NCBI GenBank assembly: GCA_947449735.1
Contig: CANFTB010000011.1
Coordinates: 1-64,000, forward strand
Source of the DNA: Chthoniobacteraceae bacterium
GTDB lineage: Bacteria > Verrucomicrobiota > Verrucomicrobiia > Chthoniobacterales > Chthoniobacteraceae
Length of the DNA: 64,000 bases
Reading direction: 5' to 3'
Part shown: in pieces, positions 12,268 through 28,431 of the stretch
Position numbering within the stretch: position 1 is the first letter of the stretch
Layout: each line of letters begins with the position of its first letter
The notes under the pieces: model-generated
What the model was told of the DNA's origin: nothing
The model's input: the letters and a program-made list of their open reading frames with translations, nothing else
Databases searched by the model: none
Translations under genes and position numbers: made by a program

Positions 12268-14595
12268 ATGCGCGCGCCTTCCCCGCTCCGTTTCCTGCTT
12301 CCGGCAGCCGTCCTCGGCACCCTCGCAGCGGCCGTCCACGCTGCTCCACTCCCGTTGCTCGCCAATGCCGCGATCACCGCTCCGACCAAGCCCTCGCTCG
12401 CCCCTCAAAGCGCACCCGCCGGGGGCTGGAACTTTCAGCGCCACGTGATGCCTGTGCTCACAAAAGCGGGATGCAACACCGGCGGCTGCCACGGCGCGCT
12501 CGCAGGCAAAGGGGGCTTCCGCCTCAGCCTGAGTGCCTACGATCCCGAAGCAGACCACCTCAGCATCACCCGCGACGCCCTCGGCCGCCGCATCGAACCG
12601 GGCGATCCCCTGCACAGCCTCCTGCTCACAAAGCCCACCTCGGCCGCCCCGCATAAAGGCGGCAAGCGCCTCGATCCGCGCTCCGATGATTACCGCATCC
12701 TTGCCGAATGGATCGCCGCCGGCGCCCCCGGCCCAAGCGCAACCGACCCGCGCCTGGACCGCATCGAGATCCGTCCGGACCGCCTGTCTTCGAAAAAGGG
12801 AGACAAGCTGCGCCTTCAGGTCCTCGCTCACTACTCGGGAGGCATCGTTGAGGACGTGACCCGCTGGGCCAAGTTTACCTCCACCGATGAAACGATGCTC
12901 AAAGTGTCCGACACGAACGGTGGCGTGGAAGTCACCGGCCACGGCGAAGGCGCCGTCACGGCGTGGTTTTCCAGCCGCATCGTCATGTCCCGGGTCGTGT
13001 CGCCCTTTCCACGCGCCACCACCTCCTCTACCGCAGCGAAGGACAGCGGACTTTGGAGAGAGGCCAACCTTGTCGATAAGGCCGTAAACGCGCAACTCCG
13101 GCAGCTGAACCTTGTCCCCTCGCCGCCAGCCGACGACGCCACCTTCCTGCGGCGCGCTCGACTGGACACCACCGGGGTGCTTCCGACTCCGGAGGAAACC
13201 CGCGCATTCATAGCGGACGCCTCACCCGCGAAGCGGGACGCGCTCATCAACAAACTTCTGGATTCCAAAGAATTCGGGGACTACTGGACCTACCGCTGGT
13301 CCGACCTTTTTCTGGTCAGCGGCTCCCACCTGCGCCCCGAGGCGGTCAAAACTTACTCCAAATGGCTGCATTCCGAGGTTGAGAAGAACTCCCCCTGGGA
13401 CCAGCTCGTACGCCAGGTGGTGACCGCGAAAGGCGGAAGCCTGGAGCAGGGCGAGACCAATTTTTACGCCGTCCACCAGGAGCCGGAAGCCATGGCTGAA
13501 AACATCAGCCAGGCGTTCATGGGCCTCTCCATCAACTGCGCAAAGTGCCACAACCACCCGCTCGAAAAGTGGACGAACGACCAGTACTACGCGTTCGCCA
13601 ATTTGTTCGCGCAAGTCCGCGCAAAGGGCTGGGGCGGCGACACGCGCTCGGGCGACGGCAAGCGCACGCTCTACACAGTACCCAGCGGAGACCTCATCCA
13701 GCCCCGCACTGGCAGGCCGCAACCGGCCGCGCCCCTGGACGCTCCGGCGCTGCCTCCGGGCGAAGGCGACCGCCGCGAGGCTCTCGCGGACTGGCTCACC
13801 TCCCCCAAAAACCCCTATTTCACCCGCGCAATCGTCAACCGCGTCTGGGCGGCGTTCTGGGGCATTGGAATCGTAAACTCAGTCGATGATTTGCGCGTCT
13901 CAAACCCGGCCACCAACGAGGCGCTCATGGACGGCCTCTCAGCCTATCTCGTGGAACAACGCTACGACCTCAAGGCCCTCATGCGGCTGATCTTGCAGAG
14001 CGCCTCCTACCAGCGCTCGAGCGAGGCCCTGGAGGAAAACAAGAACGACTCCAAATACTTCGCCCGCTATTACCCGAGGCGTATGATGTCCGAGGCCCTC
14101 AGCGATGCCATCTCCTACGTCACAGGCGTGCCTGAGACCTTCACCGAAATTCAAATGCAGGACGGCTCCAGCGAAAAAACAGACCTTTACCCTAAAGGAT
14201 CGAAAGCGCTGCAGTTGTATGATTCCGCGGTGAAATCCTACTTTTTGAAAGCCTTCGGCCGGAACCAGCGGGAGATCACCTGCGAATGCGAGCGCTCCAA
14301 CCAGCCGAGCATCGTTCAGGCGCTGCACCTCGCCAACGGCACCACACTCAACGACAAACTCGCAGCAAAAGACGGCGCCGTGAGCGCTCTGCTCTCAGTC
14401 AAAAAGGACCAGTCCGCGGATGCGGACCTCATCGAGGAGGCGTTCTTAAAATGCCTCGGCCGTTTCCCACGGACCGACGAGGCCGCAGCCTATCTCAAAA
14501 TCCTCAAGGAAACTCCGGACTCCGAACGCCGTCCGGCCGTCGAAGACATGTTCTGGTCCCTGCTCACCAGCCGGGAATTCCTCTTCCAGCACTGA
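12268..14595 (+). CDS. DUF1549/DUF1553 (PSCyt2/PSD1) exported protein with Ig-like domain
   Basis: About 775 aa from ATG 12268. There is a secretory signal (residues 1-27), then a variant heme-like motif CNTGGCH (Cys69, Cys74, His75). An Ig-like/BIG2-type stretch at about 165-250 (LSSKKGDKLRLQVLAHYSGG) precedes DUF1549 (about 265-470). That domain contains a true CxxCH, CAKCH, at 424-428 followed by NHPLEKW. DUF1553 forms the C-terminal half, with WAAFWGIGIV and EITCECERSNQPS. The family is PVC-specific, exported and of unknown function; heme attachment is predicted by motif only. Coupled tightly to the DUF1501 gene. Confidence 0.93.
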   Translation: MRAPSPLRFLLPAAVLGTLAAAVHAAPLPLLANAAITAPTKPSLAPQSAPAGGWNFQRHVMPVLTKAGCNTGGCHGALAGKGGFRLSLSAYDPEADHLSITRDALGRRIEPGDPLHSLLLTKPTSAAPHKGGKRLDPRSDDYRILAEWIAAGAPGPSATDPRLDRIEIRPDRLSSKKGDKLRLQVLAHYSGGIVEDVTRWAKFTSTDETMLKVSDTNGGVEVTGHGEGAVTAWFSSRIVMSRVVSPFPRATTSSTAAKDSGLWREANLVDKAVNAQLRQLNLVPSPPADDATFLRRARLDTTGVLPTPEETRAFIADASPAKRDALINKLLDSKEFGDYWTYRWSDLFLVSGSHLRPEAVKTYSKWLHSEVEKNSPWDQLVRQVVTAKGGSLEQGETNFYAVHQEPEAMAENISQAFMGLSINCAKCHNHPLEKWTNDQYYAFANLFAQVRAKGWGGDTRSGDGKRTLYTVPSGDLIQPRTGRPQPAAPLDAPALPPGEGDRREALADWLTSPKNPYFTRAIVNRVWAAFWGIGIVNSVDDLRVSNPATNEALMDGLSAYLVEQRYDLKALMRLILQSASYQRSSEALEENKNDSKYFARYYPRRMMSEALSDAISYVTGVPETFTEIQMQDGSSEKTDLYPKGSKALQLYDSAVKSYFLKAFGRNQREITCECERSNQPSIVQALHLANGTTLNDKLAAKDGAVSALLSVKKDQSADADLIEEAFLKCLGRFPRTDEAAAYLKILKETPDSERRPAVEDMFWSLLTSREFLFQH

Positions 14596-14633
14596 TCTGC
14601 GGATCATCCACACCCTCTGTCCCCCTCATTCGC

Positions 14634-17423
14634 ATGGCCCCAATTCGATTTGAACGCCTGCTCGCCTGCCTCGCCCTGTCCGGCACCCTCGGAACCGCAG
14701 GCGCGGCTGTCCCCGACTTCCATTCCGAGGTCGCCCCGATCCTGCGCGACTACTGCTCCGGTTGCCACAACAACAAGGACACAGAGGGTGAACTCAACAT
14801 GGAAACCTTCGCTCTTTTAAAGAAGGGCGGGGAACACAAGTCCCCGCTTCCCTCGGCGCAGGGGGAGGCAAGCCTCCTTCAAAAAGTCATCCGGGGCGAA
14901 AAGCCCGCAATGCCTCCGAAAAAGGAACCACACCCCACTGCCGCGGACCTCGCCGTGCTCGAGGCCTGGCTAAAGTCGGGCGCCCCGGGACCCACGGCTC
15001 CGGACGTTTCGATCCTCACCTTGGTCACCGTGCCGGACCTTCCCTTGAACATCAAACCCTCCAAGGCCGTCACTACCGTTGCCTCCTCCCCAGACGGCAA
15101 GCTCGTTGCGCTGGGTCGCTACCAGTCCGTCGAAGTTCAAGAAGCCGCCACGGGGAAACAGCTCCACCAATTCACAGAACTACCGGGCAAGGTCACTTCA
15201 CTCCAGTTTTCAAAAGACGGAACCCGGCTGGCCGCGGCCTCGGGAGTTGCAGGTATCAGCGGCATCGCAAAGATCTGGAACCTCGCTGAAAAATCTGAAG
15301 TAACGCTAGAGGGCGCCCACAGCGACCTTCTTTACGCAGTCCGCTGGTCGCCTGACGCATCACTGCTTGCGACGGCGGGATACGACTCCAAACTCGTGCT
15401 CTGGGACGTTCCCCACAGAAAGGTCGCGCGCACACTCAGCGGTCACAACGGAGCGGTTTTCGACGCCGCGTTTAATCCCGACGGGACGCTCCTCGCCACC
15501 GCAAGCGGCGATCAAACGGTGAAGATCTGGAGGGTCAAGGACGGCGAGCGGCTGGACACCTTGAAGGAACCCCAGGGCGAACAATTCAGCGTCGCATTCA
15601 CCCCCGACGGAGCATCCGTCCTAGCAGCGGGAGCCGACCGCAGAATCCGCCTGTGGAAGTTGAAGAGCCGCGCGCAGGCCGAGATCAACCCGATGCAGGA
15701 GTCGAGGTTCGCTCACGAGGCCACGATCAATGCCATGGCCGTCCTCCCCTCCGGAGACCGCCTCGTAAGCGCCGCCCTCGACCGAACGCTGAAGGTATGG
15801 ACCCTTCCCGGGCTGCAACTTCTGGAGGTATTGCCGCCGCAACCCGATTCCGTCACCGCTCTCGGCGCCGTGCAAACCACGGACAGTTTGCTCGTATCCC
15901 GCATGAACGGATCCGTGGAGAGAATTTCGATGCCCAAAGTCCCTCTCCCGGCGCCCGGCGCGCAGGACGCCGCAGCCTCTGGGGCCGCCCGAGAAGCCGC
16001 CGAGCAAGCGCCCGTGCAAGTTGCCGAACTAGAGCCCAACAACCACCCCGACACGGCGCAAAAGATTTCCCTGCCGGCCGAGATCCGCGGCAAAATCGCC
16101 ATCAAAGGCGACGTGGACACGTTCCGTTTTGAGGCAAAAAAAGGGGACCGCTGGAGCTTTGAAGTGTTCGCCGAGCGTGAAAAGTCCTCCCTGGATTCAC
16201 GCCTCGAAATTCGGGACTCAAATGGAGCGCCCGTACCACGTGTGCTTCTGCAGGCGACGCGCAGTTCGTGGCTCACCTTCCGAGGGAAGGACGCCACCAC
16301 CTCCGATGATTTCCGCGTCCAGAACTACGCCGAAATGGAGATCAACGAGTGGCTCTACTGCAACGGCGAGGTGGTCAAACTCTGGATGTATCCGCGGGGA
16401 CCCGACTCCGGCTTCATCGTCTATCCCGGCCAGGGCGTTCGCCATACCTACTTCGATACCACTCCCCTCTCCCACCCGCTGGGACAACCCGTTTACACGG
16501 TCATCCCGCTCCCTCCGGGCGCGAAGCCGCCGGCAAACGGTCTACCCCTGTTCGAGCTTCCGTTTGAAAACGACGACGACTCGTCGCGCGAAGCCGGGCG
16601 CGATTCGATCCTCCAGTTTACAGCACCCGCGGACTCCGCCTACCTAGTGCGGATTACCGACTCCCGCGGCTTTGGGGATGAGAACGCCTCCTACCGGCTC
16701 GTCTGCAGACGCTCCAAACCGGACTTCAGCGTGACAATCAGCTCAGGCGCAAAGCCCGCCGTCAGCCCCGGCAGCGGCCGTGAATTCCAGCTCAAGGCAA
16801 TCCGCAGGGATGGATTCGACGGTGAGATCCGCGTCGACCTCGCCGACCTGCCGCCGGGATTCACCGCGAGCACGCCGGTGGTTATTGAAAAGGACCAGAC
16901 CTTTGCGATGGCCGCGATTTATGCGGAACCTCGCCTCACCAAGCCGACCCCCGAGGTCGCTGCGCGCACCAAACTCGTCTGCACCGCGGTCATCGAGGGC
17001 CGCGAAGTCACCCGCACGTCCCCGGGGCTCGGCGAAATCAAAGTCGGTGCTGCAGCCAAGGTGACCGCACAGGTTCTTCCTCAAGACGGAAGGAAAACGG
17101 CGCCCGGCAAACCGGTGGAGCTGACACTCCACCCCGGCGAGACCATCTTCGCAAAAATCCGCGCAAACCGGATCGACTTCAAAGACCGGATTGAATTCGG
17201 AAAAGAGGACTCTGGGAGGAACCTCCCGCACGGAGTCTACGTCGATAACCTCGGACTCAACGGCCTCCTCGTACCGGAGGAGACCACGGAACGCGAGTTT
17301 TCACTCACCGCAGCGAAATGGGTTCCGGAGGGAAAGCGCCTCATCTTCTTCAGGGCAAAAGGCGACGGAGGCCAGGCGACACCGCCGGTGCTCCTGAACA
17401 TTGTGCGCCCGAAGGGGCAGTAG
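14634..17423 (+). CDS. Exported PSCyt1 / WD40 propeller / PPC-domain protein
   Basis: About 929 aa from ATG 14634. A signal peptide (1-24) leads into the planctomycete cytochrome C domain with CSGCH (41-45). A WD40 propeller follows at about 130-420, with repeats such as DASLLATAGYDSKLVLWD and LLATASGDQTVKIWRVKDG. After it comes a bacterial pre-peptidase C-terminal (PPC) domain beginning VAELEPNNHPDTAQKI, then further beta-sandwich regions. It is third in the cluster, 38 bp after the PSD1 gene. It looks like a periplasmic or surface electron-transfer/scaffold protein; the role is inferred from domains. Confidence 0.92.
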   Translation: MAPIRFERLLACLALSGTLGTAGAAVPDFHSEVAPILRDYCSGCHNNKDTEGELNMETFALLKKGGEHKSPLPSAQGEASLLQKVIRGEKPAMPPKKEPHPTAADLAVLEAWLKSGAPGPTAPDVSILTLVTVPDLPLNIKPSKAVTTVASSPDGKLVALGRYQSVEVQEAATGKQLHQFTELPGKVTSLQFSKDGTRLAAASGVAGISGIAKIWNLAEKSEVTLEGAHSDLLYAVRWSPDASLLATAGYDSKLVLWDVPHRKVARTLSGHNGAVFDAAFNPDGTLLATASGDQTVKIWRVKDGERLDTLKEPQGEQFSVAFTPDGASVLAAGADRRIRLWKLKSRAQAEINPMQESRFAHEATINAMAVLPSGDRLVSAALDRTLKVWTLPGLQLLEVLPPQPDSVTALGAVQTTDSLLVSRMNGSVERISMPKVPLPAPGAQDAAASGAAREAAEQAPVQVAELEPNNHPDTAQKISLPAEIRGKIAIKGDVDTFRFEAKKGDRWSFEVFAEREKSSLDSRLEIRDSNGAPVPRVLLQATRSSWLTFRGKDATTSDDFRVQNYAEMEINEWLYCNGEVVKLWMYPRGPDSGFIVYPGQGVRHTYFDTTPLSHPLGQPVYTVIPLPPGAKPPANGLPLFELPFENDDDSSREAGRDSILQFTAPADSAYLVRITDSRGFGDENASYRLVCRRSKPDFSVTISSGAKPAVSPGSGREFQLKAIRRDGFDGEIRVDLADLPPGFTASTPVVIEKDQTFAMAAIYAEPRLTKPTPEVAARTKLVCTAVIEGREVTRTSPGLGEIKVGAAAKVTAQVLPQDGRKTAPGKPVELTLHPGETIFAKIRANRIDFKDRIEFGKEDSGRNLPHGVYVDNLGLNGLLVPEETTEREFSLTAAKWVPEGKRLIFFRAKGDGGQATPPVLLNIVRPKGQ

Positions 17424-17561
17424 CGGGAGAGCGCCCCGCCCATCCAAGGCAGGCCGCCCGGAGGAATGTCCGATTCTTCATAAAACTTGTCAGAGTTAAA
17501 AGGCGCCGGCGGAGGTTAGCATGGTAGGCTCAAAACCGTCCCCCGAGCCCTCCCCTGCACC

Positions 17562-20492
17562 ATGACCCGATCGAAATCCCTCCGCTTCACCCAAACCTGC
17601 GCAGCCGCAGCAGTTCTTACCCTCAGCTCCACAGCCCTCCACGCAGCACCCCGCCCCCTACGCATCGCCTACCTTGATGTCGCGGGTGCCGAGCGCCTCG
17701 CCCCGGGACCGCTGCACTCCGCAATGAAGGAGAACGGCAGGGACGCCATCTACTTCGACTACTTTGCGAGCGCGACGGACTTGAGCGCCGAGATTGTGAA
17801 GCTGTACGACGTGGTGCTCGTCCGCGGAGAGGCGGGCAACCTGCCGGCTCTTGCGGCGCACCAAGCTGCGAACCGCGTTCTCGAAGTCAAAGAGTCGCAG
17901 TCCGGCGCCGAGATCCGTGCGCTCGTCCTGGGCGCGGCGTCCAAGGACGCGAAGAAGGACTGGGAAGATTTCCTCGCCCAGCGCGAGCCCGAGGTCCGCG
18001 AACCCAATCAAAACGTGGCGAACTATGAAAAGCGCCCGGAACCACTGACTTTCCAAAAACCATTCAGCGCCAAAGGTTCGATGGAGCGTATCCAGGTGCC
18101 CGCCGACACCCGGCTCGAGCTGTTTGCCAGCTCCCCGGAGATCGGAAAACCCATCGCGATGGCCTGGGATGCCAGGGGCCGCTGCTGGGTCGCCTGCACC
18201 AGCGACTATCCGCACGGCGTCAATCCGGAGAACGTCGGCAACGACAAGATCGTCATCTGCGAGGACACGGACGGCGACGGCAAGGCCGACAAGTTCACGG
18301 TCTTCGCCGACAAGCTCAACATCCCCACCGGCCTGGTCTTCACAAACGGCGGACTCATCGTATCGCAGCCCCCGAACTTTGTTTTCCTCAAGGACACGGA
18401 CGGCGACGACAAGGCTGACAAGCGCGAGATCGTCCTCTCGGGCTGGGGGATTGGCGATACCCACGCCCAAGCGAGCAACCTCCACTACGGCTACGACAAC
18501 TGGCTCTACGGCGCGGTGGGCTACTCCGGGTTCAAAGGAACCGTAAACGACAAGCCGCTCGATTTTCGGCAAGGCAGCTACCGGTTCAAACCCGACGGAT
18601 CGCGTCTGGAGTTCCTGCATCAATTTTCCAACAACACCTGGGCGCAGAGCTACAATGCTGCAGGCGACGCCTTCGGCGGCACCGCGAACAACGCCCCGAT
18701 TTTCTATGGCGGCATTCCCGCCACGGCCCTGCCTGACGGCAAGGGGATGAGCGCCAAAAAAATCAACGTGGTCTCCGAGGCGCATACGATCACCCCCAAC
18801 TACCGGCAGGTGGACGTGTTCAACGGATACACGGCGGCCGCCGGTTCAGCGTTTGTTTATTCCTCGAACCTGCCCGCGAGGTTTCAGGGCAAGGCGCTGG
18901 TGTGCGAGCCCACCATGAAGCTAGTCGCACTCCTGGACGTGCAACCCGACGGCGCCGGATACAAGGCGTTCGACGGCATGAACGTGTTCGCGAGCTCCGA
19001 CGAGTGGACTTCGCCCGTTTACGCCGAAGTCGGCCCCGACGGGGCGATCTGGGTGGCTGACTGGCAGAACTTCATCATCCAGCACAACCCGACGCCGAGC
19101 GCGGAACGGGGCGGTTACAAGGCCGTCACCGGTGTCGGCGGCGCCCATGAGAACGAGCTCAGAGACCACGAACGCGGACGCATTTACCGGATCGTTTCCA
19201 GCAACACCAAGCCAGGCAAGCCAAAGGCCTTGGATGGCGGCTCCAGCCAGGCCCTCGTCGAGGCGCTTGGCAGCGACGTGCAGTACACGCGCCTCACGGC
19301 GCAGCGCCTTCTGGTCGAGGGAAAGAAGCAGGACGCTACGCCCGCCCTCGTAAAAACGGTGACGGCAAACGACGGAGGCGTCGCCGCGGTACATGCGCTG
19401 TGGGCGCTGCACGGTCTCGGGAAGCTTGACGAGCAAACGCACAGGGCCGCCCTCTATGCAAAGGACGACCGCCTCCGCAGAAACGCCATCCGCGCGCTCG
19501 GCACGGACGATGCGGACCGCAGTCTCTTCTTCGGATCAGGCGTCGTGGGCGACAGCGAACCCCACACGCGCCTCGCGGCATGGGTGCGTCTCGCGGACTT
19601 CCCGACGACTCCTGAAATTCAAAAGCTCGTCCGCGGGCTCTCCTCGGATCCGGCCACGAAAAACGACGATTGGCTCAAGGAGGCCGCGCGCATGCTGGCC
19701 AAGCGACACCAGACCGAGATTTACAAGGAAGGCCCGAACCTCCTTCCGAATCCGGGGCTCGAAACCCTCGGCGCCAACGGGCTTCCGGAAGGCTGGCAAC
19801 GGCGCGACTACAACCCGAAATCCGGACCAGATTTTGCCGTGTGGGAAAGCGTCACCGCGAAAAACACCTCCCACAGCGGCGAACGCGGCCTTCGCGTGAC
19901 TTCAAACGACAACGTGGACACCAGTTTCCACGCGGCATTGGAGGTCAAGCCGAACACCGACTACAAGTTGTCGGCATGGGTCCGGGGCAAGGGACTCAAG
20001 GGAAAGATCAGCCTCAACGACCACATCGGCCGGACGGAAACCGATAAGATGACCAGGGACGGCAACTGGACCGAGGTGGAGGCCGTATTCAACAGCGGGG
20101 CCAGAACGAAGGCCGACATCAACCTTCTCTTCGTGGGCAAGGGCGAGGCTGTCTTTGATGACGCAAAGCTCGTGGAAATCATCCCGATTACGGAAAGCCC
20201 CCTGCTTGCAGCCGACCCGGTGCGCGGGGAGCAGATCTTTCTCAAACACCCCACCGCGGCGTGCGTACTCTGCCATGCGATCAAGGGACAGGGCAGCAGC
20301 GTCGGACCTGCGCTAGACGGCATCGCGTCGCGGCAGAACGCCGCCTACATCAAGCAGAGCTTGCTGGAACCCAACGCAGTGATTGCAAAGGGCTTTGAAT
20401 ACCTGCAGGTGTCGCCCATGCCGCCCATGGGACTCATCCTCAACCCGCAGGAAATCGAGGATATCCAGGCCTTCCTGCAAACCCTCAAGTAG
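17562..20492 (+). CDS. PVC-type heme-binding CxxCH protein with propeller and carbohydrate-binding-like domain
   Basis: 976 aa with a signal peptide ending near LHAAP. The N-terminal 150 residues resemble an alpha/beta ThuA-like or response fold (weak). A PVC-type dehydrogenase-like propeller follows (about 165-530), with Ca-binding-like repeats DTDGDGKADKF and DTDGDDKADK. HEAT-like repeats lie at about 565-720. A CBM4/9-like beta sandwich at about 725-880 begins NLLPNPGLETLG. The C-terminal cytochrome c domain has CVLCH at 901-905. Last gene of the cluster, 138 bp after the WD40 gene. Substrate unknown; a sugar-linked oxidation or binding role is inference. Confidence 0.9.
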   Translation: MTRSKSLRFTQTCAAAAVLTLSSTALHAAPRPLRIAYLDVAGAERLAPGPLHSAMKENGRDAIYFDYFASATDLSAEIVKLYDVVLVRGEAGNLPALAAHQAANRVLEVKESQSGAEIRALVLGAASKDAKKDWEDFLAQREPEVREPNQNVANYEKRPEPLTFQKPFSAKGSMERIQVPADTRLELFASSPEIGKPIAMAWDARGRCWVACTSDYPHGVNPENVGNDKIVICEDTDGDGKADKFTVFADKLNIPTGLVFTNGGLIVSQPPNFVFLKDTDGDDKADKREIVLSGWGIGDTHAQASNLHYGYDNWLYGAVGYSGFKGTVNDKPLDFRQGSYRFKPDGSRLEFLHQFSNNTWAQSYNAAGDAFGGTANNAPIFYGGIPATALPDGKGMSAKKINVVSEAHTITPNYRQVDVFNGYTAAAGSAFVYSSNLPARFQGKALVCEPTMKLVALLDVQPDGAGYKAFDGMNVFASSDEWTSPVYAEVGPDGAIWVADWQNFIIQHNPTPSAERGGYKAVTGVGGAHENELRDHERGRIYRIVSSNTKPGKPKALDGGSSQALVEALGSDVQYTRLTAQRLLVEGKKQDATPALVKTVTANDGGVAAVHALWALHGLGKLDEQTHRAALYAKDDRLRRNAIRALGTDDADRSLFFGSGVVGDSEPHTRLAAWVRLADFPTTPEIQKLVRGLSSDPATKNDDWLKEAARMLAKRHQTEIYKEGPNLLPNPGLETLGANGLPEGWQRRDYNPKSGPDFAVWESVTAKNTSHSGERGLRVTSNDNVDTSFHAALEVKPNTDYKLSAWVRGKGLKGKISLNDHIGRTETDKMTRDGNWTEVEAVFNSGARTKADINLLFVGKGEAVFDDAKLVEIIPITESPLLAADPVRGEQIFLKHPTAACVLCHAIKGQGSSVGPALDGIASRQNAAYIKQSLLEPNAVIAKGFEYLQVSPMPPMGLILNPQEIEDIQAFLQTLK

Positions 20493-20565: not shown

Positions 20566-22425
<1,860 letters not shown>

Positions 22426-22576
22426 AAGGGGGAGCGATGGGCTGCACGGCAGATTGCGAAGGCTTGAACCTATCCATGTCTTTGTTCCCTGACAAGGTGG
22501 CGGCGGACTCCAAAGTCGGCGCCCAAACTGCAACGCTGCTTGGCACTGCTTCGTTTACCGACCAAACTCGGTCTAC

Positions 22577-23602
22577 ATGTCCTTTCGAATTGGAGTTATT
22601 GGCACAGGTCACATCGGCCGCTTGCACGCCCGCATTCTCTCCGAAGTAGCCGCCGGCGAGTTTTGCTGCGTTTACGACGCCAACGCTGACGCTGCCCGCG
22701 AAGTCGCAAAAATCCACGGTGTCAAAGCCTCCGCGTCGCTCGGCGACTTCATTGCATCCGTCGACGCCGCGACGCTGGCCACGCCCACACCCTTTCACTT
22801 TTCCATCGGCAAGCAACTGCTCGAGGCAGGACGCCATGTCCTCATCGAAAAGCCGATCACGGAAAACACAGACGACGCCCGCGAACTGGTGGCGATCGCG
22901 AAAAGCCGCGGCCTCGCCCTCCAAGTCGGTCACGTAGAGCGCTTCAACCCAGTGCTTTCCGCACTGGAAAACCGCCTGCACCAGCCCCGCTTCATCGAAA
23001 GCCACAGACTCTCCCCCTATCCAAACCGGAGCACCGACATCGGCGTGGTGCTGGACCTCATGATCCACGACATCGAGATCATCCTCCACCTGGTCCGCTC
23101 CCCCGTGGTTTCCGTGGACGCCGTCGGCGTGCCGGTCCTGTCTTCGAGCGAAGACATCGCCAATGCGCGCCTCCGCTTTGAAAACGGCTGCGTTGCCAAC
23201 CTCACCGTCTCCCGCGTCAGTCCCGAGCGGATGCGCAAGATTCGCGTCTTTCAAGAAGACTGCTATCTGTCCCTCGACTACATGAAACAGGAGGGATTTG
23301 TCTACCGGATGGCAGAGGACCACCGGAAGGAAAGCTCTCTACTTGCGAAACTTTTCGCCTCCGGCGACACCACGATCGTGAGCGAATTTGCAGGACGCAA
23401 GATCCTGCGGGAACCGGTGCCGATCGAAAAAGGCGAGCCGCTCAAGCGCGAACTCGCGGATTTTGTCCGCTGCGCCAAGGCGGGAGCGGAGCCAAAGGTG
23501 AGCGGCCGGGAGGGCACTGCCGCCCTGGAGCTGGCGCTCGACATCACGCGGCGTATTCAGGACCACCAAAAAGCACACCCTGCGCATCCGAAAGCGTCGT
23601 GA
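22577..23602 (+). CDS. Gfo/Idh/MocA-family oxidoreductase coupled to lpxB
   Basis: 341-aa NAD(P)-dependent oxidoreductase. The Rossmann motif is IGVIGTGHIGRLHA and the family signature is EKPI at about residue 95, followed by QVGHVERFNP and HDIEIIL in the catalytic domain. The last 4 bases overlap the lpxB start (GTGA), indicating translational coupling. A comparable oxidoreductase, GnnA, makes UDP-3-keto-GlcNAc for 2,3-diamino lipid A in some bacteria. A GnnA-like role is attractive here but no GnnB aminotransferase is in the window. Substrate not proven. Confidence 0.88.
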   Translation: MSFRIGVIGTGHIGRLHARILSEVAAGEFCCVYDANADAAREVAKIHGVKASASLGDFIASVDAATLATPTPFHFSIGKQLLEAGRHVLIEKPITENTDDARELVAIAKSRGLALQVGHVERFNPVLSALENRLHQPRFIESHRLSPYPNRSTDIGVVLDLMIHDIEIILHLVRSPVVSVDAVGVPVLSSSEDIANARLRFENGCVANLTVSRVSPERMRKIRVFQEDCYLSLDYMKQEGFVYRMAEDHRKESSLLAKLFASGDTTIVSEFAGRKILREPVPIEKGEPLKRELADFVRCAKAGAEPKVSGREGTAALELALDITRRIQDHQKAHPAHPKAS

Positions 23603-24738
23603 AGCCTCTGCAATCGCTCTACGTGGTCGCGGGAGAAGCCAGCGGAGACGCCAGGGGAGCGGAGCTGCTCACGGCGCTCAAGGCCAGCCTGCCAGACATC
23701 GAAATCCTGGGAGCGGGAGGCCCCCGGATGCAGGCGCTCGCAACAGGCCCCTTCTTGGAATGGACGGCAGAGGCCGTCGTGGGCCTATGGGACGTTTTGC
23801 GAAAGTACTCGTACTTTAAGTCCCAGATGGACCGCATGCTGGCGGAAATCGAAACCCTGCGGCCGGACGCCCTTCTGCTCATCGACTACCCAGGCTTCAA
23901 CCTGCGCCTCGCCAAGGCGGCCAAGGAACGCCTCCCAAAGCTCAGGACGATATTCTACATCAGCCCCCAGGTGTGGGCTTGGAACCGCGGCCGGATCCCT
24001 AAAATGGCGCGTTACCTGGACCGGATGCTATGCATTTTTCCCTTTGAAAAGGCTCTCTACGAGGCCTCCGGGCTAAAGACGGATTTCGTGGGCCACCCGA
24101 TGATCGACAGCCTTGCCCCCCTGAGGACCGGGGCGGTTCGCAGCGACTCGCTTGTCGGTCTGTTCCCGGGAAGCCGCGACAGGGAGGTGCGCCGCCTGTT
24201 TCCGGTGATGCTGGAGGCCGCCCGACTGCTCAACTCGCTGCATCCCGGTGTGCGTTTCGAGGCTCCCGCCGCCAGCGCACGCCTGGCAGCCTGGATGCTG
24301 AACTACATGAGCGAACACAACTTCGACCCTGCGTTCTGCAAAATCGGAAGGGACCGTTTTTATCCGCTCGCGCAGGAGGCCGCGGCCGGCATGGTCTGCT
24401 CGGGGACCGCTACACTGGAAGCCGCTTACTTCGGGCTGCCGATGTTAATCACCTACCGCGTCGCGCCCCTCACTTGGGCGGCCGGCAAGGCTCTTGTCCG
24501 CATCCCCTTCCTGGGCATGCCCAACATTCTGGCCGGCCGCCAAATCGCCCCTGAATTTCTCCAGGGGGCGGCTACGCCAGCCAGGCTCGCCTCCGCCATG
24601 CAGGAGCTCCTTTTGAATCCCGAAAAACGCTCGGCCCAGCAGGAGGCGTTTAGAGGAGTGATCGAAGGACTGGGCGGCCCGGGCGCCGGAGAGAGAGCCG
24701 CCCGGGTGGTGGCGGAGGAAATGCAGGCGCTGGCGTAG
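23599..24738 (+). CDS. lpxB: Lipid-A-disaccharide synthase
   Basis: Joins UDP-2,3-diacylglucosamine and lipid X to form the lipid A disaccharide at the inner membrane. At 379 aa it has the normal length. The N-terminal block (YVVAGEASGDARGAEL) is highly characteristic, followed by GAGGPRMQA, ISPQVWAWNRGR and the C-terminal SGTATLEAAYFGLPML. The GTG start at 23599 overlaps the preceding oxidoreductase stop, so the two are cotranslated. Together with kdsA and lpt genes nearby it indicates a Gram-negative, LPS-bearing envelope. Confidence 0.96.
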   Translation: MKPLQSLYVVAGEASGDARGAELLTALKASLPDIEILGAGGPRMQALATGPFLEWTAEAVVGLWDVLRKYSYFKSQMDRMLAEIETLRPDALLLIDYPGFNLRLAKAAKERLPKLRTIFYISPQVWAWNRGRIPKMARYLDRMLCIFPFEKALYEASGLKTDFVGHPMIDSLAPLRTGAVRSDSLVGLFPGSRDREVRRLFPVMLEAARLLNSLHPGVRFEAPAASARLAAWMLNYMSEHNFDPAFCKIGRDRFYPLAQEAAAGMVCSGTATLEAAYFGLPMLITYRVAPLTWAAGKALVRIPFLGMPNILAGRQIAPEFLQGAATPARLASAMQELLLNPEKRSAQQEAFRGVIEGLGGPGAGERAARVVAEEMQALA

Positions 24739-25271: not shown

Positions 25272-26036
25272 TCACAGCCGGAAGCCCTCCCCGAGATACA
25301 CCCGGCGGGCTACCGGATCGTTGACCAGAAATTCTTTGGTGCCTTGCGTTTCCACGCGGCCTTCGAAAATGAGATAGGCCCTGTCCACTATCGCAAGTGT
25401 CTCGCGCACATTGTGATCTGTTATCAGAATGCCGAGACCGTCGTCCCGCAGGCGGGAGATGATCTGCTGAACGTCCGCAACCGCAATAGGATCCACGCCG
25501 CTGAAGGGTTCGTCCAGCATCAGGAGGGACGGGTTGGTCACCAGGGAACGGGCTATCGTGAGCCGCCGTTTTTCTCCGCCGGAGAGAGTCAAAGCAAGTT
25601 GCTTAGCCACGTGCGTAATTCCAAACTGATTTAGCAGTTCTTCGCAACGCAATTTTCGATCTTTTTTCGACAAGGACTGGGTCTCCAGGATGGCCATCAG
25701 GTTCTCCTCCACCGTGAGCTTCCTGAAGATCGACTCCTCCTGGGGAAGGTAGCCCATGCCCATCCGGGCCCGGCGGTACATCGGCAAATCCGTAACATCC
25801 TCGCCCTGAAAAGTCACCCTCCCTCCGTCGGGCCGGACCAGCCCGGCGATCATGTAAAAACTCGTCGTCTTGCCGGCCCCGTTCGGCCCGAGCAGCCCGA
25901 CGATTTCTCCCTTCGCGAGCTGGATATCCACGCCGTTCACCACGGCCCTGCGCCCGTATATTTTGAGCAACTTTTCAGTGCGCAAAACCGGCTCCCTGAA
26001 CTCCTGCCCCTTAAAACCCTCAGACCCAACATTCAT
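25272..26036 (-). CDS. lptB: LPS export ABC transporter ATPase
   Basis: 254-aa ABC ATPase that powers extraction of LPS from the inner membrane. Walker A is GPNGAGKTT (about 50-58), the signature is LSGGEKRRL and Walker B is LLMLDEPF followed by SGVDPIAV, the LptB form. GYLPQEESIFRKLTVEENL is also LptB-typical. The N-terminus carries about 15 extra residues before VLRTEKLLKIYGRR. Its ATG is one base after the lptA stop, so expression is coupled. LptF/LptG membrane partners are not in the window. Confidence 0.96.
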   Translation of the reverse strand: MNVGSEGFKGQEFREPVLRTEKLLKIYGRRAVVNGVDIQLAKGEIVGLLGPNGAGKTTSFYMIAGLVRPDGGRVTFQGEDVTDLPMYRRARMGMGYLPQEESIFRKLTVEENLMAILETQSLSKKDRKLRCEELLNQFGITHVAKQLALTLSGGEKRRLTIARSLVTNPSLLMLDEPFSGVDPIAVADVQQIISRLRDDGLGILITDHNVRETLAIVDRAYLIFEGRVETQGTKEFLVNDPVARRVYLGEGFRL

Positions 26037-26037
26037 A

Positions 26038-26847
26038 TCAACGCACTTCCTCGGCAGTAGTGCTGCGCAGGACGGACTTGGAGCGCCCCAACACCTCCAG
26101 CGACCCCTTGGCGTTTAAAATGATCACGGTCCGCTCCTCCGCCCCCACGATCGTGTTCTGCTTCTGCTCCACCTGCGGCCACCCGGACAGCGTGATGTTT
26201 CCCGTGACGGCATCGTAAACAGCCTTCTGCGCGCGTCCCACGCTGCGCTCGACCTCCCCCTTGTCGTTCACCTTTTCCTGCACGATCACAACATCGCCCT
26301 CCGCCACCGCTTTGTCCACCCCTCCTCCGCCCGCCTTTGGAAGTGCGTCGCCCTGGGACTTGCTGGAGCCCGCCTCTCCCTCCTCCCCGGCTTTCGCTCC
26401 GGCCGCGTTCTTCGCTCCCGCCCCCGGCTTCGCCTCCACCGCAGGACGCTTCAAATACGCCGTCAATTTCTCGCAACTCAGCGTGAACCGGGGGTCGCTC
26501 ACCGTGACCTCCCCAAAAAAGGTCGCCTCGTAATTCTTTGAATCCAAAAGGAGCCTGCTCTTTGCCGTGATGGTCGTCGCGGTCGCCCCCTTATGCTCCC
26601 GCTGCTCCCGCGCCGCGCTTTTTGGATCCTCCGCTTTGGCGGCACCCTCGCCCACCTGAACCGCCCCCTTCAGCGCCTCCCGGACCGCGGCTTTCGAAGT
26701 TTCCCCCGCAGGCGCCTTTCCTTTCTCCTGCGGGAGCGCCCGCCCTGGAGTGTCGCCGGAATTCTGGGCCTGAGCCTCGGGGAGGCCGCCCACGATGACC
26801 AAGGCGACTCCAAGGAAGGCCGACCGAAAGGGTGAAAATTTGCGCAT
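26038..26847 (-). CDS. lptA: LptA/OstA-like periplasmic LPS transport protein
   Basis: 269 aa with a secretory signal ending near AQAQ. The OstA-type beta-jellyroll repeats appear in two blocks: ITAKSRLLLDSKNYEATFFGEVTVSDPRFTL split by a linker from DVVIVQEKV and KAVYDAVTGNITLSGWPQV. The linker (about 140-180) is an unusual Ala/Gly/Lys-rich low-complexity insert. Family members bridge LPS across the periplasm. The assignment rests on the repeat pattern and on its place between the LptC-like gene and lptB. Confidence 0.85.
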   Translation of the reverse strand: MRKFSPFRSAFLGVALVIVGGLPEAQAQNSGDTPGRALPQEKGKAPAGETSKAAVREALKGAVQVGEGAAKAEDPKSAAREQREHKGATATTITAKSRLLLDSKNYEATFFGEVTVSDPRFTLSCEKLTAYLKRPAVEAKPGAGAKNAAGAKAGEEGEAGSSKSQGDALPKAGGGGVDKAVAEGDVVIVQEKVNDKGEVERSVGRAQKAVYDAVTGNITLSGWPQVEQKQNTIVGAEERTVIILNAKGSLEVLGRSKSVLRSTTAEEVR

Positions 26848-26876: not shown

Positions 26877-27599
26877 CTACTTTTCAGCCCCGGGGCCGTC
26901 CCCCTCCTTTTTGACTTCCGAACGCTCCGGGGTTTCCGCCTGGGCATCCGCCGGTTCGCCAAATCCGCTGTAAATCACCATTTCCACCGGTCCGCCAAAA
27001 CCGCCGTCCTTGGTGTAGGTGTTGAACTCCAGGCTCGCCGCCCTCAGCTCAAACTCGGCGCGGCGCACCACGACCGGAATCTTGGCAACCAGCATCCGTG
27101 TCACGCGGTCCAACTGCGCCTTGGGAAGTTCGATGGAGAAATCCCGGCTTCCGTCCTCCTTGTAAGTTTCCAGAAAACTTTCCCGGATCTCCACCAACCG
27201 GTCGTCCACGCGGGAAACAGCGCCGATCGCAAACAACGAGCGCAAGTTTCCGGCCGTGTCGTACTCCGGAATGTTCAGTCCGAAACTGTCGTACCCCTGC
27301 ACCAGGGGAATTACCAAGGGAGGGGGAGGCTCCGACCTGGATTCTTCCTTTGCGCCCTTAGGGTCCCCCTTCGAGTTTGCTGGCGGCACGGGAGCCAGCC
27401 GCGCTCCCCAGTCCGCAGGAGGCAGTTTGTCCGGACTCGGGGCTGCAGGCACAGCAGCAGCCTTTCCCGAGCCTGCTGAGGCCGGCGCAGGCACGGCGGG
27501 CGAGGCTTTCTCCTGAGGCGCAGCCTCAAGAGGCAGCAACGCGCCCGCAATGGCAAACCACGACAGCGAAAAAAGCCCTCTACTCTCGAACAAGCGCAT
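26877..27599 (-). CDS. Putative LptC-like periplasmic protein
   Basis: 240 aa with an N-terminal hydrophobic segment (about 8-25), then a Pro/Ala/Lys-rich linker to about residue 90. The C-terminal part is predicted beta-rich, with SLFAIGAVSRVDDRLVEI, and AELRAASLEFNTYT. LptC has this shape, an anchored beta-jellyroll, and this position between kdsA and lptA is where lptC sits in many genomes. No direct motif proves it. Its start overlaps the kdsA 3' end by 20 bases, so it is in the same transcript. Confidence 0.5.
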   Translation of the reverse strand: MRLFESRGLFSLSWFAIAGALLPLEAAPQEKASPAVPAPASAGSGKAAAVPAAPSPDKLPPADWGARLAPVPPANSKGDPKGAKEESRSEPPPPLVIPLVQGYDSFGLNIPEYDTAGNLRSLFAIGAVSRVDDRLVEIRESFLETYKEDGSRDFSIELPKAQLDRVTRMLVAKIPVVVRRAEFELRAASLEFNTYTKDGGFGGPVEMVIYSGFGEPADAQAETPERSEVKKEGDGPGAEK

Positions 27600-28431
27600 G
27601 AATTTTGGCCAGTTTTTGAAGCAGCGCCGGCAGGTCGGCCAGCGGAACTTGGTTCGGCCCGTCGCTCAGGGCCTTGGAGGGATCCTCGTGGGTCTCGATA
27701 AACACGCCGTCACATCCAGCCGCCACGGCGGCCCTCGCAAGAACGGGCGCCAACACCCCATCCCCCGAGGTCTTGTCGCCTCCGCCGCCCGGCCTTTGCA
27801 CAGAGTGCGTCGCATCAAACACGATCCGGTAGCCCAGTTCGCGGATCCAATAGAGCGCACGCATGTCCGCCACCAGATTGTTGTACCCGAAGGTCACCCC
27901 GCGCTCGGTGAAAAAGAAGCGCTCGTTCCCGAAAGACTCGAGCTTGCGGGCGATGTTCGCCACGTCCTGCGGCGCCAAAAACTGTCCCTTCTTCACGTTG
28001 ACCACCCGCCCCGTGCCCGCAGCAGCCTCAATCAAGTCGGTTTGCCGGCACAAAAATGCGGGAATCTGCAGGATGTCTATCCACTCGGCGGCCGCCTCCG
28101 CCTCCTCCGGGGAGTGCACGTCCGTGGTCACCGGAACCCCGAGCGAGCGCCCGATGTCCCCCAGAATCCGGCACCCTTCCTTGACTCCCATGCCCCGGAA
28201 GCTCTTGCCCGAAGTCCGGTTGGCCTTGTCGTAGGACGCCTTGAAAACAAAAGGCAGCGACAAACCGGCGCACATCTCATGGAGCGCGCGCGCCATTTTC
28301 CACACAAACTCCTCCGATTCGATCACGCAGGGCCCCAAAATAAACAGGGGCAGCGGCCCGCCGAGCGCAATGCCTCCCTCGACAATAGGCAGGGGGGGCG
28401 GCAAGGGGGCGGGGGTAAGGCTAACAGTCAT
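27580..28431 (-). CDS. kdsA: 3-deoxy-8-phosphooctulonate (KDO-8-P) synthase
   Basis: Condenses arabinose-5-phosphate with phosphoenolpyruvate in KDO synthesis for the LPS core. 283 aa of TIM-barrel enzyme, with FILGPCVIES near the start, KASYDKANRTSGKSFRG, and TTDVHSPEEAEAAAEWIDILQIPAFLCRQTDL. KKGQFLAPQD and FDATHSVQRPGGGG complete the family signature. It is first of the kdsA-lptC-like-lptA-lptB transcript, with a Pro-rich, variable N-terminus of about 14 residues. Confidence 0.97.
   Translation of the reverse strand: MTVSLTPAPLPPPLPIVEGGIALGGPLPLFILGPCVIESEEFVWKMARALHEMCAGLSLPFVFKASYDKANRTSGKSFRGMGVKEGCRILGDIGRSLGVPVTTDVHSPEEAEAAAEWIDILQIPAFLCRQTDLIEAAAGTGRVVNVKKGQFLAPQDVANIARKLESFGNERFFFTERGVTFGYNNLVADMRALYWIRELGYRIVFDATHSVQRPGGGGDKTSGDGVLAPVLARAAVAAGCDGVFIETHEDPSKALSDGPNQVPLADLPALLQKLAKIHALVRE

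Follow-up and report, generated by a model that had tools for sequence, protein, structure and literature searches.

A candidate GnnA-type dehydrogenase overlapping lpxB in a Chthoniobacteraceae bacterium and a probable route to partly amide-linked lipid A in Verrucomicrobiota

The GnnA/GnnB pathway is already known, and the LpxA of Leptospira interrogans is selective for UDP-GlcNAc3N. Amide-linked 3-acyl chains alter host sensing of lipid A. In Campylobacter jejuni, according to the part of the study drawn on here, TLR4 is activated more strongly, and antimicrobial peptides are more effective, once gnnA and gnnB are inactivated (PMC8036547). A parallel to the present case is Capnocytophaga canimorsus, for which the sections consulted describe a proven hybrid GlcN3N-GlcN lipid A and the genes lpxA, lpxA', gnnA and gnnB (PMC3342949). 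The two gnn genes need not be linked, and in Mesorhizobium loti gnnA and gnnB are unlinked to each other, as far as the excerpt used here goes (PMC5644692).

The window analysed here, meaning the whole stretch of 64,000 nucleotides, comes from the assembly of a Chthoniobacteraceae bacterium that comprises 4.18 Mb in 67 contigs and is 89.6 % complete. Its relevant features are collected in Table 1. The stop codon of an oxidoreductase gene (TGA, 23600-23602) overlaps the start codon of lpxB (GTG, 23599-23601), an arrangement that the initial annotation had singled out; both reading frames were confirmed with the same coordinates and strand. The GTG start is plausible since the VAGEASGD motif begins nine residues after it, and the product is an LpxB by both models that recognise it (PF02684, 293 bits; TIGR00215, 248 bits with a cut-off of 190). 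Convergent to the pair lie genes for an S30EA protein and for LptB-like, LptA/LptD-N and KdsA-like proteins, which makes this an LPS neighbourhood. Inspection by eye further shows, at window positions 14286-20492 on the plus strand and 20566-22533 on the minus strand, two large reading frames of 1045 and 976 aa in which CxxCH haem-binding motifs occur, together with a sulfatase-like gene; the first of the two frames also contains WD40-like repeats, and the sulfatase-like gene is divergent from the dehydrogenase.

Table 1. Features of the dehydrogenase-lpxB locus, in window positions
Feature	Position	Strand	Basis
GnnA-type UDP-GlcNAc 3-dehydrogenase candidate (Gfo/Idh/MocA family), 341 aa	22577..23602	+	ORF, domain and structure matches
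lpxB, lipid-A-disaccharide synthase, 379 aa, GTG start	23599..24738	+	ORF, PF02684, TIGR00215
GTGA four-base overlap of dehydrogenase stop and lpxB start	23599..23602	+	sequence
Convergent LptB-like ABC ATPase in an LPS transport context	25272..26036	-	PF00005; lptB name is a reading from context
LptA/LptD-N domain protein, LPS transport context	26038..26847	-	PF03968
kdsA-like gene (DAHP_synth_1), Kdo synthesis context	27580..28431	-	PF00793; kdsA name is our reading

The oxidoreductase scores above cut-off for PF01408 (89 bits) and for PF22725 (45 bits), and its nearest named relatives are mostly from Verrucomicrobiota. When the single sequence is compared with the PDB, the best match is the A. 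ferrooxidans protein 7bvj/7bvk, entitled UDP-N-acetylglucosamine 3-dehydrogenase GnnA, at 189.6 bits (runner-up 67.4); with a profile of the family the corresponding scores are 303.4 and 127.5 bits. An AlphaFold model (pLDDT 92.9) matches the same GnnA in Foldseek (E 1.3e-35) and superimposes on it with a Z score of 40.6 and an rmsd of 1.4 over 301 residues, the second-ranked entry reaching Z 34.7; identity in the structure alignments amounts to 33-37 %. Among 81 family members, 81 positions are at least 90 % conserved, and 50 of these are found in the GnnA segment compared with 23 in that of the inositol dehydrogenase 4hkt, both segments being partial and the latter the shorter. The EKP motif (E91 K92 P93) is conserved in the dehydrogenase and shared with AfGnnA. 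The top NCBIfam model is likewise a UDP-GlcNAc 3-dehydrogenase (NF040723, archaeal by name), at 207 bits and thus below its cut-off of 450. Within the source genome this is the only strong copy, at 747 bits versus 40.8 for the second. We consider it very probable that the dehydrogenase is a GnnA, and what had been proposed initially as an analogy now rests on the top PDB match by both approaches.

Linkage to lipid A genes is conserved in relatives. The dehydrogenase is carried by 78 of 115 genomes drawn from the phylum (77 at E 1e-50 and G092 at 2.1e-50); 30 of the 38 apparent non-carriers, that is all but eight from family f5, were rechecked at E 1e-15, with a best score after G092 of 85 bits. 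Of the 75 phylum genomes that match both proteins, 40 have the orthologue immediately 5' of lpxB in the same orientation. When 80 loci from named genomes of relatives were inspected, 58 had at least one such gene within 1.3 kb and in the same orientation (lpxB in 45, lpxI in 30, lpxA in seven, lpxC in four and waaA in one; Pfam was used to check the identity of LpxI, LpxC and the Kdo transferase in selected cases). Of the 45 loci holding both the dehydrogenase and lpxB, 18 would allow the two genes to share four bases at the start and stop. Cultured species with the dehydrogenase include Luteolibacter marinus and Pelagicoccus mobilis (loci L063 and L106). Family f11 has an LpxA2-type gene no more than 1.2 kb from the dehydrogenase in 11 of 13 genomes checked, and in examples from this family its neighbours include two kinases, one pyrH-like and one of the GHMP type. 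Even the 0.9-Mb reduced genomes G036 and G057 retain the dehydrogenase beside lpxB. The pairing is more than chance, and the tie to lipid A that was first read from the overlap in one genome is borne out in 58 of 80 loci.

Taken together with the genes described below, these data point to the following pathway. The dehydrogenase would oxidise the 3-hydroxyl of UDP-GlcNAc with NAD+ to give UDP-3-keto-GlcNAc, which an unlinked DegT-type aminotransferase encoded on contig C30 would convert to UDP-GlcNAc3N. A second LpxA (LpxA2), which has lost a lysine of the sugar pocket, would N-acylate this sugar, and the ordinary LpxA1 would O-acylate UDP-GlcNAc. Both acylated sugars would pass through the later steps and be joined by LpxB, yielding a lipid A with at least one amide-linked 3-acyl chain and probably a GlcN3N/GlcN hybrid. 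The overlap with lpxB may serve to coordinate synthesis of the first enzyme with that of the enzyme that joins the backbone. We put the probability that GnnA, GnnB and LpxA2 together lead to a partly amide-linked, probably hybrid, lipid A at roughly three in four. Substrate and product, the assignment of the partner, the sugar taken by each LpxA and the structure of the lipid A are what we infer. Formation of the hybrid through a dedicated LpxA2 is favoured but less certain than the identity of GnnA.

Where would the aminotransferase come from? A DegT gene near the dehydrogenase was found in none of the 80 loci, examined with flanks of up to 8 kb, and linkage was therefore sought from the DegT side; in G073 and G092 a DegT gene lies 4.5 and 5.3 kb, respectively, from the dehydrogenase. 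The source genome has three long DegT matches, on contig C30 (L027:8792-9952, plus strand), at L028 (DegT2) and on contig C18 (L018). DegT2 sits by eye in a glycan cluster, is nearest to the RfbH model and was set aside as a GnnB. The C30 protein matches PDB entry 7b0d, labelled scyllo-inositol transaminase, at 296 bits, followed by 2oga (271), QdtB (263) and WbpE (250), which we take to be 3-keto-sugar aminotransferases; ArnB scores 163. In a tree it falls within a clade of 41 (SH-aLRT 99), of which 39 members come from dehydrogenase carriers and two from the non-carrier family f27. Eight non-carriers have their DegT rows outside this clade, and two more, from f12, have their best DegT outside it, but the same is true of the rows of carriers G036 and G057 (f3), G018 and G060 (f7) and G004. 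This tree has rows for all but six of the 30 PF01041 loci, and its regions were chosen from the best DegT matches. The reduced genomes G036 and G057 have a single DegT at E 1e-10; G074, a genome 93 % complete, has the dehydrogenase and no DegT match at that threshold.

An MsbA-like ABC gene adjoins DegT in 17 of 40 DegT regions, with lpxD then following in one; four of the 17 ABC neighbours were scanned against NCBIfam, and MsbA was the top model for three and the runner-up for the fourth, with every score below the curated cut-off. Conservation of such a pair would by itself suggest lipid A chemistry. The C30 DegT is a plausible GnnB candidate, and the lack of an adjacent aminotransferase is no obstacle, since the genome holds an unlinked DegT from a clade that is often MsbA-adjacent. 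The initial annotation had taken the absence of an adjacent gnnB as a hint of some other modification; that argument is weakened by the C30 gene and by published pairs that are unlinked. A search for gnnB elsewhere in the genome, which it had recommended, did yield this candidate, but no matching family assignment: the top NCBIfam model is PseC, a 4-amino-sugar transaminase, at 251 bits and below its cut-off of 423.5. As separate observations, the DegT and MsbA-like pair recurs in several families (L167-L169, L173-L175, L180, L181, L183-L190, L171), in several cases with a murC-like gene (by eye) after it, and in G066 a single reading frame beside DegT (L176:8265-10223, minus strand) joins a lipid A acyltransferase domain to a glycosyltransferase family 9 domain.

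A further element is a second LpxA, which the initial annotation had not foreseen, nor its co-occurrence with the dehydrogenase. The source genome encodes two LpxA proteins, both above the curated LpxA cut-off: LpxA1 on contig C15 beside lpxC, and LpxA2 on contig C6 (L026:8126-8971, plus strand), which scores 261 bits with TIGR01852 (cut-off 231) and keeps His122 and the catalytic His125. Among the 112 phylum genomes with an LpxA match (G026, G046 and G110 gave none at E 1e-30), all 62 with two LpxA carry the dehydrogenase; the 50 with a single LpxA divide into 14 carriers and 36 non-carriers, and these 36 are all the non-carriers with a match. The association has a raw Fisher p of 3e-18, uncorrected for relatedness. 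When mapped on a tree of LpxB from 53 genomes, the dehydrogenase shows five changes, at which the second LpxA either follows or stays the same and never moves in the opposite direction; with few independent changes, and three pairs on supported branches, a phylogeny-corrected significance is out of reach. The LpxA2 clade stands apart from LpxA1 (SH-aLRT 100), but some proteins group with LpxA1 instead, namely the copies chosen as LpxA2 in f16 and those single LpxA from f11 and f21 that were included. Alignment A1 covered 29 of 30 LpxA2 loci. A two-LpxA rule was also considered beyond the phylum and rejected: of 14 genomes there with the dehydrogenase, 12 have a single LpxA and one has two, while in one none was found.

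A difference between the two proteins can be read, by alignment of LpxA sequences, at the position of E. coli Lys76, which is lysine in the LpxA1 of the source genome and glycine, within PQDLGF, in its LpxA2. Sequences were in hand for 74 of the 78 carriers (all copies in 55) and for 21 of 37 non-carriers. Fifty of these 55 carriers have at least one lysine-less LpxA, 24 with one LpxA of each kind and 26 with none that has the lysine; among non-carriers the lysine is missing in two of 21, both from f27, which have the DegT of the clade. In the remaining 19 carriers, whose set of copies is incomplete, a lysine-less LpxA is seen in 11, only LpxA1 in three (G007, G090 and G104), and in the other five, all from f7, a second LpxA that retains the lysine. 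Of the 14 single-LpxA carriers, 12 (from f11, f16 and f21) have only a lysine-less LpxA. No LpxA has lost the lysine in f3 (two genomes), in two genomes of f14 or in one of f7; both second LpxA in hand from f14 retain it, as do six of ten from f7, where all ten are without the aspartate two places before. Since the LpxA1 of five lysine-keeping f7 genomes is not in hand, these fall outside the 55, and the rule of lysine loss is weaker in f7 than 50 of 55 implies. Outside the phylum, six of seven dehydrogenase-linked LpxA retain the lysine. The pocket aspartate (E. coli D74) is lost in 14 of 14 second LpxA read (f7, L350-L359; f4, L247 and L251-L253). Two f27 genomes (G079 and G083; L335 and L336) combine an LpxA with histidine at the pocket lysine and an MsbA-linked DegT, with no orthologous dehydrogenase; a different Gfo protein may have replaced it there.

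What this substitution means for the sugar that LpxA2 accepts is less direct. E. coli LpxA reportedly takes both sugars in vitro, in work by Sweet from 2004, which lends some weight to the view that the GnnA route holds while LpxA2 is not amine-specific, so that LpxA1 would take both sugars and the pair would differ elsewhere, for example in the acyl chain. The f3 genomes, with the dehydrogenase and LpxA1 alone, would fit this view and are an exception to the gene set proposed above; the f7 copies that retain the lysine would fit it as well. In the portion of the literature drawn on here, the pocket lysine of Pseudomonas LpxA contacts the 6-OH of GlcNAc and not the 3-OH, and it is absent from the LpxA of Leptospira and of B. 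thailandensis, the latter having Met (PMC7072397). Loss of lysine 76 was for these reasons rejected as proof of amine selectivity; it indicates a changed sugar pocket rather than an amine preference as such. Against a non-selective LpxA2, however, stand the absence of a second LpxA from every family without the dehydrogenase, the position of the single LpxA fetched from non-carriers on the LpxA1 side of the tree, f27 excepted, and the single-LpxA carriers in which a lysine-less LpxA is the only one. We regard this explanation as unlikely, albeit one to be taken seriously, and retain LpxA2 as the favoured N-acylating enzyme.

A different destination for the product is easier to discount. With the same GnnA chemistry, UDP-GlcNAc3N or its N-acetyl form could enter some other surface glycan. 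The best NCBIfam model of the dehydrogenase carries an archaeal name, and lipid A synthesis would, to our knowledge, not be expected in archaea. Moreover, 22 of the 80 loci have none of the lipid A genes tried nearby, and the 2.0-Mb genome of G046 retains a GnnA-type dehydrogenase (C1:1033384-1034145) and DegT genes, with no LpxA, LpxB or LpxC match, so that the enzyme can serve another purpose. However, the linkage to lipid A genes in the other 58 loci extends over several phyla, the dehydrogenase co-occurs with the second LpxA, and the DegT clade often adjoins MsbA-like genes. This diversion to another glycan appears improbable, and lipid A is most likely where the product goes. Finally, although the Gfo/Idh/MocA family is broad and matches at E 0.001 extend to 85 distinct PDB sequences, a dehydrogenase for another sugar (inositol, a WlbA-type UDP-GlcNAcA or other) placed beside lpxB by chance is hardly credible, given that GnnA stands well above all others in sequence and fold, that the inositol 2-dehydrogenase model IolG (TIGR04380) scores 110 bits against a cut-off of 355, and that the linkage to lipid A genes is conserved.

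Homology, fold match, gene linkage, co-occurrence and pocket substitution were all computed here, and they allow a wider, more tentative proposal to which we give somewhat less than an even chance. Diamino lipid A would be an old trait of Verrucomicrobiota, with GnnA, GnnB and the second LpxA inherited together. GnnA would be coupled to lpxB or lpxI, or lie beside lpxA2, and GnnB would often lie beside msbA. Families f11, f16, f21 and f34, in which only lysine-less LpxA was seen, would be all-diamino, and most other carriers would be hybrid. Family f5, which probably holds Akkermansia muciniphila, has neither the dehydrogenase nor a second LpxA and would have lost the set. The open-licence papers searched contained nothing about gnnA or diamino lipid A for Verrucomicrobiota, nor any text joining Verrucomicrobi with GlcN3N, nor the spread in the phylum, the coupling to lpxB/lpxI or the tie to a second LpxA. 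If the proposal is true, the backbone chemistry of lipid A across much of the phylum would be readable from a few genes, and f5 and its relatives would offer a natural contrast for testing. Paired LpxA from one cell would be material for learning how preference for a hydroxyl or an amine is set.

How does this locus compare with described systems? A. ferrooxidans GnnA is the closest solved relative of the dehydrogenase and has the fold and most of the conserved positions in common with it; compared with its GnnA/GnnB, the gnnB candidate here is unlinked and the dehydrogenase overlaps lpxB. The LpxA of Leptospira interrogans has Gly at the K76 position within a PQDLGF identical to that of LpxA2, and its structure (3hsq) is, barely, the top PDB match of the LpxA2 profile, with 303.3 bits versus 301.3 for E. 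coli LpxA. However, its long branch joins the tree elsewhere than in the LpxA2 clade, and given these separate positions the common motif may be convergent. M. loti belongs to another phylum, and the part of its description used here mentions no overlap with lpxB, but its gnnA and gnnB likewise lie apart from each other and from the lpxA, lpxB and lpxD cluster (PMC5644692). In C. canimorsus, as described in the sections consulted, lpxA and lpxA' share a cluster with lpxC and lpxD, whereas LpxA2 here is encoded on another contig; nevertheless, two LpxA, GnnA and GnnB make up the same gene set as that proposed for the Chthoniobacteraceae bacterium (PMC3342949).
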